From positions 62,001-126,000 of the forward strand of contig NZ_SCHL01000001.1 in NCBI RefSeq assembly GCF_004099695.1: 64,000 bases of DNA. Reading direction: 5' to 3'. Numbering within the stretch: position 1 is the first letter of the stretch; each line of letters begins with the position of its first letter. The notes beneath the pieces were generated by a model. The model searched no databases. It worked only from the letters and a program-made list of their open reading frames with translations, and was not told where the DNA came from. The stretch comes from Methanosarcina sp. MSH10X1. GTDB taxonomy: Archaea; Halobacteriota; Methanosarcinia; Methanosarcinales; Methanosarcinaceae. Shown piece after piece: positions 57,676-62,469 of this stretch. A program made the position numbers and the translations under genes.

Positions 57676-58284
57676 AGTTCTAAAGCCCTGTGATTCCGAA
57701 AATACCAGCTAGCGGCATTGACAGCTATCTATACCCGGTTATGGCTGAGAAATTCAAAATAAATCAATGCCTCCTCCTGATTTCACATTACATTTTCTGA
57801 TCTAGGTGATGAGCTGGCAGTTTTCGTATATGGTAAAGATTTGAAAGAAAAACAGGATTGGCTAAAGAAGAAAAGTACCCCTGATTTTAAAGAATAATCC
57901 TGCTCAGCAGACCAGATAAAATTAATCAATATGCATAGGATGATATATATAAAAGAATAATTATATAAAGTGGATTATTGAACGCCGAGCCTGGGAAATC
58001 TCGAGGATTAGTTGGGGGTTGACAGAGTAATATTAACCGGTAGATACCTGGTAAGCGGTTCTGTGATAAAACATTTGATAAATCTCGGCACCCAGGTTGA
58101 AATCGATAGTATCCAAAAAAGGCCATCTTAATTAATTCACATACCTCTGAATAGTGCAGTCTGTTGAAGAATAGACGCGATACTCCGGTTTTTCAGGATT
58201 TAAAAACGGTAATGGAGACGATCGTTTCGCTTTCGTTGCCGAACTGGCTTGAAAACACAAAAATCAATAAAATCCATGATATAA
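57676..58284. other. Decayed region with coding-like fragments
   Basis: Two short plus-strand stretches look protein-like but have no proper starts. 57781-57897 reads FHITFSDLGDELAVFVYGKD then a Lys-rich end. 58012-58131 reads LGVDRVILTGRYLVSGSVIK and HLINLGTQVEIDSIQKRPS; a neighbouring phase ahead of it (LLNAEPGKSRGLVGG) could join it through a G-run frameshift. I do not recognise the parents. This looks like a graveyard of small genes. Confidence 0.4.
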
Positions 58285-58292
58285 AAGGAGGT
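58285..58292 (+). promoter_or_regulatory. Strong ribosome binding site before an ATA start
   Basis: AAGGAGGT, seven bases before ATA at 58300-58302. The paralogous gene at 58980 has ATG at the equivalent codon. Confidence 0.8.
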
Positions 58293-58299
58293 TTGAGTT

Positions 58300-58806
58300 A
58301 TAGCAACTTTAACTGTTCTGAAGTTTGAAACTATTGACGGTGCTGAAAGGGCACTTCATGTGATTCAGGATCTGAGCAAGCAGAATCTGATTAATCTGCA
58401 TGATGCAGCCATAGTTACCTGGCCTGCGGACAAGAAGAAGCCTAAAACCAAACAATTATCGGATCTATCAGGCGTAGGATCAATGAGCGGCGCTTTCTGG
58501 GGTTTGCTGTTCGGTCTTATCTTCTTCGTTCCTATATTTGGCATGGTTGTCGGTGCCGCATTGGGTGCACTCACCGGTTCCATGGCAGACGTCGGGATTA
58601 GTGATGACTTTATCAAGTCTGTCCGCAGCAAAGTGACTCCTGGTACATCAGCTCTCTTTCTTATGACCAGCGATGCCGTGAAAGATAGGGTTTTCGAAGC
58701 CATGCAGCAGTTCAATTTTGAGATAATTGCCACCAACCTGTCCAGGGAAGAAGAAGAAAAACTGCGCGCTGCCTTTGCCGAAGAGGAAGCAGCTCCAGCA
58801 CATTGA
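58300..58806 (+). CDS. DUF1269 protein, copy 1, ATA start
   Basis: A 168-residue DUF1269 protein: an N-terminal ferredoxin-like fold (ATLTVLKFETIDGAERALHV, LSKQNLINLHDAAIVTWPAD) and a glycine-zipper membrane hairpin (GAFWGLLFGLIFFVPIFGMV, GAALGALTGSM). The C-terminal lobe is VTPGTSALFLMTSDAVKDRV. The tandem copy at 58980 begins ATG-GCA-ACT-CTA; here the same codons read ATA-GCA-ACT-TTA after a perfect AAGGAGGT. Starting at GTG 58360 would delete 20 conserved residues. So initiation at ATA is the simplest reading. Function unknown; associated with stress in other microbes. Confidence 0.88.
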   Translation: MATLTVLKFETIDGAERALHVIQDLSKQNLINLHDAAIVTWPADKKKPKTKQLSDLSGVGSMSGAFWGLLFGLIFFVPIFGMVVGAALGALTGSMADVGISDDFIKSVRSKVTPGTSALFLMTSDAVKDRVFEAMQQFNFEIIATNLSREEEEKLRAAFAEEEAAPAH

Positions 58807-58979
58807 ATTCTGACCTGAAAGCCGCCCCTCCAGAAAGCAAAATTAAGGAGAACAGCGGTTTCTCAAAAACGATAGGAAGGTGGAGGAAAGGAGCAAAAGG
58901 TCGGTTCCTTTCCACATTTTTGCTTTTATTTATTTTTCAGGAAAAAAGGCTGGTAGGAGAATAAAAGGGGTTTTGAGGA

Positions 58980-59468
58980 ATGGCAACTCTAACAGTTCTG
59001 AAGTTTGAAACTACCGATGGTGCTGAAAAGGCACGTCACGTGATTGAAGATCTGAGCAAGCAGAATCTGATCACCCTGCATGATGCAGCCATAGTTACCT
59101 GGCCTGCGGATAAGAAGAAGCCAAAAACCGAGCAGTTGAAAAGTGAAACAGATAAGGGGATACTTAGCGGCGCTTTTTGGGGCATGCTCTTTGGCCTGCT
59201 TTTCTTTGTTCCTATATTAGGCCTGGTCGTTGGAGCCACAATGGGTGGAATGGCAGGGTCCATGTCCGATGTGGGCATTAACGATGAGTTCATCCGATCC
59301 GTCCGCAGCAAAGTGACTCCAGGTACGTCAGCCCTTTTTCTTATGACCAGCGATGCCGTCAAGGATAAGGTTTTCGAAGCCATGAGGCAGTTCAATTTTG
59401 AGATAATTGCTACCAACCTGTCCGAGGAAGGCGAAGAAAAACTTCGGGAAGCCTTTGCTGAGGAATAA
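58980..59468 (+). CDS. DUF1269 protein, copy 2
   Basis: A 162-residue paralogue of the gene at 58300, highly similar throughout (ATLTVLKFETTDGAEKARHV, GAFWGMLFGLLFFVPILGLV, VTPGTSALFLMTSDAVKDKV). It starts with a regular ATG at 58980 after GGGGTTTTGAGGA. The glycine-zipper hairpin suggests membrane insertion or a multimer. The two copies are separated by about 170 bases and may be expressed from one or two promoters. They stand between an AI-2E transporter and the sulfatase maturase. Confidence 0.88.
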   Translation: MATLTVLKFETTDGAEKARHVIEDLSKQNLITLHDAAIVTWPADKKKPKTEQLKSETDKGILSGAFWGMLFGLLFFVPILGLVVGATMGGMAGSMSDVGINDEFIRSVRSKVTPGTSALFLMTSDAVKDKVFEAMRQFNFEIIATNLSEEGEEKLREAFAEE

Positions 59469-59638: not shown

Positions 59639-60958
59639 ATGGAAATGATAGAAAACCATCTTCCTCCTCGAATTCATGTGCTGGCCAAGCCAACAGGAGC
59701 CATCTGCAACCTGGCCTGTTCCTATTGTTTTTTTCTTGACAAGGAACTGCTCTATCCCGGCAGCAGGTTCCGCATGTCAGACGACGTTCTGGAGAATTAC
59801 ATCCGGCAGCTTATCGAAGCCCACCGCAGCCCGCAGGTAACTGTTGCCTGGCAGGGGGGTGAACCTACCCTGATGGGAATCGACTTTTACCGGCATGCAA
59901 TAGAGGTGCAGGAAAAGTACAGAAAACCGGGCATGACGTTCGAAAATACTATGCAGACAAATGGTACGCTGCTTGACAACGAATGGTGCCGGTTCTTTAA
60001 GGAAAACGGTTTTCTCATCGGGATCAGCATCGATGGCCCTCGTGAACTGCACGATGCCTACCGGGTGGACAAAAAAGGGGAAGGGACTTTCGATAGGGTC
60101 ATGAGGGGGCTTCGCCTGCTACAAAAACATGGCGTGGAATATAATGTCCTGACAACAGTAAACAGGGTCAATGCCGATTATCCGCTGGAAGTCTACCGCT
60201 TTCTGCGGGACGAAGCCGGAACAGACTGGATTCAGTTCATTCCGGTTGTAGAGAGGATAAATGAGGAGGGACACTCCCTTTATCAGAAAGGGGACACGGT
60301 CTCGGACCGGTCGGTGCAACCAGAACAGTTTGGAAGCTTTCTGAACCGTATTTTCGACGAGTGGGTGAGAAATGATGTGGGCAGGGTCTTCGTGCAGACT
60401 TTTGAGGCTTCTGTACGCAGATGGCTGAACATGCCTTCAGGCATGTGCGTTTTTGAAGAGACATGTGGTATGGGGCTTGCTCTGGAGCACAATGGCGATC
60501 TCTACTCGTGCGATCATTTTGTGGAGCCGGACTACCTTCTTGGCAATATCATGGTAAAAGAGATTTCTGAGCTTGCTGCCTCGGAAAAGCAGTACAGGTT
60601 CGGTCAGGACAAACATGATACTCTGCCGCAGGAATGCCGTGAATGCGATGTGCTCTTTGCTTGCAGGGGAGAATGTCCTAAAAACCGCTTTCTTGCCACT
60701 TCTACCGGAGAAACCGGCCTGAACTACCTTTGCGGAGGCTGGAAAGCTTTCTTCCATCATATCGACTTTCCGATGCAGATCATGGCAGGCCTGATGCGCA
60801 GGGGTTATCCGGCAGAAGAGGTCATGCGAATACTGGTCCTGGAAGACGCTTTTGCCCGTGCAGGCCGAAACGACCCCTGCCCCTGTGGCAGTGGGCTCAA
60901 GTTCAAACGCTGTCACGGCCTCAAGAAAAAGGGGCCCAAAATCCGAAATATCAATTAA
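59639..60958 (+). CDS. Anaerobic sulfatase-maturating radical SAM enzyme (anSME)
   Basis: A 439-residue radical SAM/SPASM enzyme that oxidises the active Cys (or Ser) of sulfatases to formylglycine without oxygen. The SAM cluster motif is CNLACSYC (C23, C27, C30), followed by FFLDKELLYPG and AWQGGEPTLMG, typical of anSME. SPASM-domain cysteines appear in CVFEETCGMGLALEHNGDLYSCDHF and CRECDVLFACRGECPKNRF. The C-terminal tail has an added SEC-C zinc motif (RNDPCPCGSGLKFKRCHG). It lies 20 bases before sulfatase 2, so they are co-transcribed. ATG 59639, with ATG 59645 as alternative. Confidence 0.92.
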   Translation: MEMIENHLPPRIHVLAKPTGAICNLACSYCFFLDKELLYPGSRFRMSDDVLENYIRQLIEAHRSPQVTVAWQGGEPTLMGIDFYRHAIEVQEKYRKPGMTFENTMQTNGTLLDNEWCRFFKENGFLIGISIDGPRELHDAYRVDKKGEGTFDRVMRGLRLLQKHGVEYNVLTTVNRVNADYPLEVYRFLRDEAGTDWIQFIPVVERINEEGHSLYQKGDTVSDRSVQPEQFGSFLNRIFDEWVRNDVGRVFVQTFEASVRRWLNMPSGMCVFEETCGMGLALEHNGDLYSCDHFVEPDYLLGNIMVKEISELAASEKQYRFGQDKHDTLPQECRECDVLFACRGECPKNRFLATSTGETGLNYLCGGWKAFFHHIDFPMQIMAGLMRRGYPAEEVMRILVLEDAFARAGRNDPCPCGSGLKFKRCHGLKKKGPKIRNIN

Positions 60959-60978
60959 TCTATATAATGGGGATAAAA

Positions 60979-62469
60979 ATGACAGAAAAGAAACCAAACA
61001 TACTGGTCATCTGGGGAGATGACATTGGCATTAGTAACCTCAGCTGCTACAGTGACGGTCTGATGGGGTACACAACACCAAACATTGACCGGATAGCTAA
61101 TGAAGGCATAAGGTTTACGGACTCATATGGGGAGCAGAGCTGCACCGCAGGCAGGGCATCTTTTATTACAGGACAGAGTGCCTTCCGCACAGGTTTGAGT
61201 AAAGTAGGCATGCCCGGAGCAAAACTTGGAATCCGATCCGAGGACCCGACTATAGCCGAATTATTAAAGCCACTTGGTTATGCCACGGGCCAGTTTGGAA
61301 AAAATCATTTTGGAGACCGGGATGAACATTTGCCTACCCGCCACGGTTTCGATGAGTTTTTTGGCAACCTTTACCACCTTAATGCTGAGGAAGAACCGGA
61401 AAATCCGGACTATCCACCTGAGAAGGATTTTCCAGATTTTCGGAAAAATTATGGTCCGAGGGGCGTAATCCGGAGCTATTCTGACGGCCGCATTGAAGAT
61501 ACAGGCCCGCTAACACGAAAACGCATGGAAACCGTAGATCTGGAATTTCTTGAAGCAGCAACCGATTTTATTAAGCGCCAGCATGAGAATGGGAAACCGT
61601 TCTTTGTCTGGTTCAATACTACCTGGATGCACTTCAGGGTCCATGTCCCGGAGAAAATAAAGGGGCAGTCCGGGCGCTGGCAGTCGGAATATCATGATGC
61701 AATGATCGAGCACGATCGGCAGGTCGGTATGCTATTGAATTTGCTGGATGAACTTGGAATTGCCGATGACACTATAGTTGTCTACAGCACGGACAATGGG
61801 CCCCATATGAATACCTGGCCCGATGCTGCCATGACCCCGTTCCGTAACGAGAAAAACTCCTGCTGGGAAGGAGCTTTCCGCGTTCCCGAAATAATGCGCT
61901 GGCCTGCTAAGATCCAGGCAGGCAGGACTTCTAATGAGATCGTGAGTCATCTTGACTGGCTGCCCACTTTCCTTGCAGCCGCCGGAGAGCCGGACATTAA
62001 GGAGAAACTCAAAGAAGGCTATAAAGCAGGAGACAGAACTTTCAAGGTGCATCTTGACGGCTATAATCTGCTTCCATACCTTACAGAAGAAGAAAAGAAA
62101 TCCCCACGTACCGAATTCTTTTACTTTTCCGACGATGGGGACCTGGTAGCTCTCAGGTACGATAACTGGAAAATGGTCTTTATGGAGCAGCGCGTAATTG
62201 GTACCTTACAGGTCTGGGCTGAACCTTTTGTCCAGCTTCGCGTACCAAAAATCTTCAACCTGCGCACTGACCCCTATGAAAGGGCAGATCAGACCTCAAA
62301 CACCTATTATGACTGGCTGCTGGATCATGCCTTCCTGCTGGTGCCTGCCCAGGCTATTGTGGGTGATTTTTTAGCAACTTTCAAAGATTACCCTCCACGC
62401 CAGAAAGCTGCAAGTTTTACCGTGGATCAGGTTATGGACAGGCTCTTGCAGGGAATCGGGAGCACCTGA
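60979..62469 (+). CDS. Cytoplasmic sulfatase 2 (formylglycine type)
   Basis: A 496-residue sulfatase. Metal site NILVIWGDDIGISNLSCYS (Asp14-Asp15), fGly motif SCTAGRASFITGQ with Cys55 in C-x-A-x-R form, QFGKNHFGDRDEHLPTRHGF and VVYSTDNGPH. CTAGR is an accepted variant of C-x-P/A-x-R. No signal peptide. It resembles AslA-like arylsulfatases and is shorter than sulfatase 1, lacking its C-terminal beta domain. ATG 60979 follows GGGGAT; an ATG at 60967 is also in frame. Its place directly after anSME supports maturation in the same cell compartment. Substrate unknown. Confidence 0.9.
   Translation: MTEKKPNILVIWGDDIGISNLSCYSDGLMGYTTPNIDRIANEGIRFTDSYGEQSCTAGRASFITGQSAFRTGLSKVGMPGAKLGIRSEDPTIAELLKPLGYATGQFGKNHFGDRDEHLPTRHGFDEFFGNLYHLNAEEEPENPDYPPEKDFPDFRKNYGPRGVIRSYSDGRIEDTGPLTRKRMETVDLEFLEAATDFIKRQHENGKPFFVWFNTTWMHFRVHVPEKIKGQSGRWQSEYHDAMIEHDRQVGMLLNLLDELGIADDTIVVYSTDNGPHMNTWPDAAMTPFRNEKNSCWEGAFRVPEIMRWPAKIQAGRTSNEIVSHLDWLPTFLAAAGEPDIKEKLKEGYKAGDRTFKVHLDGYNLLPYLTEEEKKSPRTEFFYFSDDGDLVALRYDNWKMVFMEQRVIGTLQVWAEPFVQLRVPKIFNLRTDPYERADQTSNTYYDWLLDHAFLLVPAQAIVGDFLATFKDYPPRQKAASFTVDQVMDRLLQGIGST

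Follow-up and report, generated by a model that had tools for sequence, protein, structure and literature searches.

Candidate AUA, AUU and AUC start codons in a small set of Methanosarcina genes

The judging of start codons has been worked out mainly for IF3 in bacteria and eIF1 in eukaryotes. Archaea, to our knowledge, have no IF3. In bacteria, starts at AUU and AUC are established, the infC gene beginning with AUU in E. coli and with AUC in Streptomyces. Near-cognate starts are repressed by bacterial IF3, and this repression is exploited by infC (AUU/AUC) and by Streptomyces sigR (GUC) (PMC5472188). In the archaeon Sulfolobus, aIF1 is reported to favor discrimination against non-canonical starts (PMC8211752). 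Ribosome profiling of M. mazei found ATG, GTG, TTG and about 5% CTG among the unannotated small ORFs, and AUA is not mentioned in the main text of that paper (PMC11456600). A survey of start codons across 36 prokaryote groups recorded one switch to AUU among 61,358 ancestral AUG starts, with AUA again unmentioned (PMC5622118). No report of an archaeal AUA or AUU start was found in a search of one open-licence library of papers.

The window, which is the whole 64-kb stretch of DNA that was analyzed (G000:C11:62001-126000), belongs to a Methanosarcina genome (G000) of 3.56 Mb. Two adjoining genes of the DUF1269 family (PF06897), copy 1 and copy 2, are found near its end and share 80% identity (Table 1). 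In copy 1, the Shine-Dalgarno (SD) sequence AAGGAGGT is followed by seven bases (TTGAGTT), then ATA and GCA-ACT-TTA-ACT-GTT-CTG. Copy 2 begins with ATG, followed by GCA-ACT-CTA-ACA-GTT-CTG. Both start regions are as the initial annotation had described them, and its claim that copy 1 has no ATG, GTG or TTG before codon 21 is confirmed as well. A single codon, GTT, separates the in-frame TGA from the ATA, and the frame then stays open to the TGA at 58804-58806. A Pfam search gives E values of 3e-39 for copy 1 and 1e-38 for copy 2, with scores of 133.8 and 131.8 bits (gathering cut-off 26.9) over profile positions 2-99 and 2-100 of 100. Both copies are full members of the DUF1269 family.

Two features of the surroundings were also observed. 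The intergenic segment 5′ of copy 1 (58138-58200) resembles the sequence at a DUF1269 remnant (L026) in G015, a genome without an intact copy. Directly after the DUF1269 pair, a radical SAM/SPASM protein with a SEC-C motif adjoins a sulfatase (59639-62469), and the two are possibly a sulfatase with its maturase. Such a pair is, as far as known, unusual in a methanogen.

Table 1. Coordinates of the features discussed. Positions refer to the window unless a contig of G000 is given.
Feature	Position	Strand	Basis or remark
Shine-Dalgarno AAGGAGGT	58285..58292	+	GGAGG core 58287-58291, 8 nt before ATA
In-frame stop TGA, two codons before ATA	58294..58296	+	Sequence
ATA, proposed initiation codon	58300..58302	+	Common to 14 homologs; sole codon shared between stop and codon 2
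DUF1269 gene copy 1, 168 codons + TGA	58300..58806	+	PF06897, 133.8 bits; purifying selection
GTG codon 21, first conventional in-frame start	58360..58362	+	Standard gene finder would start here
DUF1269 gene copy 2, 162 codons, ATG start	58980..59468	+	PF06897
Two neighboring solute-binding protein (SBP) genes, PF00496, ATT starts	G000 C22:143586 and C22:145758 (L230)		Pfam + strict scan
Aspartase/fumarase-like lyase, PF00206	G000 C11:171847	-	ATT start
Pilin-like secreted protein, ATA start	G000 C22:251238	+	Named from N-terminus; no Pfam hit
Quinone-oxidoreductase-like gene, CTG start	G000 C44:73057	+	

The best explanation of this arrangement is that copy 1 is a working DUF1269 gene that almost certainly starts at the AUA at 58300, probably through the initiator tRNA-Met (CAU) and the strong SD. 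A probability of roughly 0.87 is given to this joint reading, which is drawn from comparative sequence analysis.

Homologs were taken from 31 Methanosarcina genomes and from named genome contigs. The initial annotation had allowed for orthologs that all use a different start. The alignment instead has ATA at the same codon in 14 DUF1269 genes (ten of the 31 genomes contribute 12 of them, and two come from other contigs), though 14 close Methanosarcina homologs carry ATG at this position. Because these 14 use ATG, AUA is not required by the DUF1269 protein. ATG is also present in the Methanolobus homologs, in the sampled bacterial homologs and, with the exception of one broken ATA copy in G010, in a divergent clade of Methanosarcina paralogs. 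It is therefore probably the ancestral start of the DUF1269 genes, and the AUA start would be, as far as seen, a Methanosarcina feature within this family. Several broken or fragmentary DUF1269 copies are found in G010, G012 and G019; duplication and loss of the family have therefore recurred within the genus.

In seven of the 14 ATA genes (G000, G006, G003a, G003c, G020, G002 and G016), an in-frame stop is located close upstream, with no ATG, GTG or TTG in between. The codon preceding ATA varies (GTT, ATT, ACT or ACC), and ATA is therefore the only invariant start candidate. Five other ATA genes have an upstream codon that could serve as the start there, an ATG two codons 5′ of ATA in G014 and G025 and a TTG in the other three, positioned merely 1-2 nt after GGAGG. 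All 14 ATA genes have a strong SD, with 16S-tail duplex energies of -10 to -12.3 kcal/mol. The tendency toward a stronger SD in the ATA genes than in the ATG genes does not go beyond a trend (p 0.08). In G020, G002, G016 and G003c, a short ORF located upstream overlaps the start; G000 lacks this ORF, and a role for it was therefore dropped.

Purifying selection on the codons just after ATA is very strong. In the ATA genes, pN/pS is 0.018 over codons 2-9 (pS 0.47) and 0.19 over codons 21-150, and the corresponding values for the ATG genes are 0.12 and 0.20. The N-terminus ATLTVLKF is thus conserved as protein in the ATA genes, and these codons are translated. These values bear directly on the possibility that the true start is the GTG at codon 21, which would give a 148-residue protein and leave the first 20 codons as an untranslated leftover. 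This GTG is the first conventional start in the frame and is present in 12 of the 14 ATA genes. However, it is missing in two of them, the strong SD precedes ATA and not GTG, and the protein constraint on codons 2-9 is tighter than that on the rest of the gene. A start at this GTG is improbable, and initiation is therefore placed 5′ of codon 2. On the evidence of these alignments, it is shown to fall after the in-frame stop and before codon 2, an interval in which AUA is the sole shared codon.

Slightly less probable again is the use of another codon in this interval (GTT, ATT or ACT), or of the out-of-frame TTG at 58293 followed by a frameshift. ATT does precede ATA in a few genes, and an out-of-frame TTG is found in several. 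Only ATA is constant, however, and the TTG lies 1 nt after GGAGG, is absent in G003a, and is not accompanied by a common slippery site.

In a maximum-likelihood tree, nine of the ATA genes form one clade and five are located elsewhere. The topology test rejects a single clade of all 14 (p_AU 0.0016), and the tree requires four changes. More than one gain, or reversion, of ATA has therefore taken place, and the codon has persisted. It is very improbable that copy 1 has only recently lost its function as a duplicate gene (ATG changed to ATA, early in drift) or that its A is a sequencing error. The ATG twin next to copy 1 and the broken copies of the family in the genus would fit a disabled duplicate. 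In comparison, ATA is found in genes of separately sequenced genomes, including the nine-member all-ATA clade, and the body of the gene has a pN/pS of about 0.2. From the 168 open codons, the initial annotation had already proposed that copy 1 is not simply decayed, and the recurrence of ATA in 13 further genes goes beyond chance. Least probable of all is A-to-I editing of the mRNA, by which AUA would be decoded as AUG: its sole merit is that a standard start codon would be restored, it leaves the AUU and AUC starts of the SBP and lyase families (see below) unexplained, and A-to-I editing is not known for archaeal mRNA.

Under the preferred AUA start, the bases next to the codon were also compared. 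Position -1 is T or C in all 14 ATA genes and A in all 14 close ATG genes, and the pyrimidine accompanies ATA in the same direction in three of three independent pairs. This suggests that the start context changes along with the start codon, although the shift is not significant because there are only three such pairs. An extended pairing between a -1 pyrimidine and A37 of the initiator tRNA is an existing idea. It was rejected here as a general rule because A, G and T all occur at -1 in the SBP family.

A scan for further cases covered 793 kb and then 1.19 Mb of the 3.56-Mb genome. It selected coding-like frames with a strong SD before a codon other than ATG, GTG or TTG and with no conventional start in the next five codons. 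The strict scan gave five genes with ATA or ATT in the 1.19 Mb, namely copy 1, two paralogous SBPs, the aspartase/fumarase-like lyase and the pilin-like protein. The initial annotation had referred to four similar cases beside copy 1. No other strong ATA or ATT start was found in the scan of the 64-kb window, and it is the four genes elsewhere in G000 that are better supported. By count, the excess of ATA, ATT and ATC over other non-start codons behind SDs is modest (p 0.027), and the weight of the case therefore rests on the orthologs. There are 24 sites in G000 that match AAAGGAGG followed by 4-9 nt and ATA, and copy 1 alone among them was judged a convincing gene, so that a genome-wide tolerance of ATA was rejected as a general rule. 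No good case was found in a 400-kb sample of G014. With five strict ATA/ATT genes in 1.19 Mb, starting at AUA, AUU or AUC (AUH) is not a general laxity.

The scan of G000 also recorded a candidate ATT start at C22:342460. On the minus strand at C11:38378, there is a TPR-repeat-like frame of 406 codons in which ACG is preceded by AGGAGG and the following 90 codons lack a conventional start. In addition, a tRNA-Val/Phe/Gly cluster is tandemly duplicated at C13:58583-59246.

The SBP family provides stronger evidence for AUH starts than copy 1 does. The 31 genomes were searched with a pattern in which the start codon is left open (GGAGG-N7-NNN-MRG-AAR-AAY-CAR-CAR). It matches 31 times, in 22 of these genomes, with 22 ATT, eight ATC and one ATA, and never ATG, GTG or TTG. 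The reversed pattern, used as a control, had no matches in the same genomes. Separately fetched loci gave 29 distinct SBP genes (22 ATT, six ATC and one ATA), one of them from another genus of the same family (L350). In every one, the start codon follows GGAGG at a distance of exactly 7 nt and is not ATG, GTG or TTG. Codons 2-7 have a pN/pS of 0.17. A third base that can be T, C or A and is not G would also be expected of an ordinary Ile codon inside a gene. This reading fails in the 12 genes in which a stop is the codon immediately before the start, because nothing upstream can start the frame. The absence of AUG suggests that AUG has been selected against in this family. The proposal that AUA and perhaps AUU are tolerated is supported by the SBP genes, which use only AUU, AUC and AUA in all species of the genus from which their N-terminus was recovered. 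Gene finders limited to ATG, GTG and TTG would cut the charged n-region (KKNQQ) of the SBP signal peptide.

The remaining genes differ in their support. The ATT start of the lyase is conserved in seven Methanosarcina species. Its third codon cannot be the shared start, because it is CTG in G000 but TTA or CTA in two others. At the start of the pilin-like gene, two species have ATA and one more has ATC; this case is weaker because GTG or ATG occupies codon 2 in other relatives. The quinone-oxidoreductase-like gene has CTG in G000, G022 and G001, and TTG or ATG elsewhere. It was rejected as a case of the AUH type, being ordinary NTG drift, and is kept for contrast only.

In the proposed mechanism for copy 1, the strong SD, with GGAGG at a favorable distance of 8 nt upstream, would position the mRNA at AUA. 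The ordinary initiator Met-tRNA (CAU) would be accepted on this codon by a C-A mismatch at the third position. The protein would then begin with Met, and the efficiency would be below that of AUG. With the help of a strong SD, the same CAU initiator may read AUA, AUU and AUC. No tRNA with a UAU anticodon is among the tRNAs detected, a few hits being left unresolved by ARAGORN; a special UAU initiator was therefore set aside, and the CAU initiator is the likely reader. More speculatively, and by analogy, a weak start may set or regulate output through a checkpoint of start-codon fidelity, which in archaea would be aIF1. A regulatory role of the AUH starts is likewise speculative. It is doubtful that the AUH genes make up an archaeal regulon, with output set jointly by the stringency of initiation and with AUG selected against.

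In seven DUF1269 ATA genes and in the 29 SBP genes, the candidate AUH starts combine the lack of a conventional start, conservation among orthologs and downstream codons that are translated. The best reading is that Methanosarcina keeps a small set of AUH-started genes, with the SBP family as the clearest. Non-AUG starting in these genes looks like a maintained feature that is missed by gene finders, and programs that allow only ATG, GTG and TTG would shorten the genes. Conserved AUH starts would be natural substrates, in genetically tractable archaea, for studying how start codons are judged by initiation factors.

Among the known systems, bacterial infC and sigR are similar in having a conserved near-cognate start that is missed by gene finders, and infC uses AUU and AUC, as the SBP family is proposed to do. 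On the other hand, the bacterial starts are experimentally shown and repressed by IF3, whereas the Methanosarcina genes are unrelated to them and their initiation is deduced from sequence. The GUG, UUG and CUG starts of Methanosarcina are also non-AUG and would share the same initiator, and a CTG start was found here as well. These codons differ from AUG at the first base (NUG), whereas the AUH codons differ at the third. Within DUF1269 itself, the homologs of Methanolobus and of the sampled bacteria start with ATG, unlike the ATA genes of Methanosarcina.
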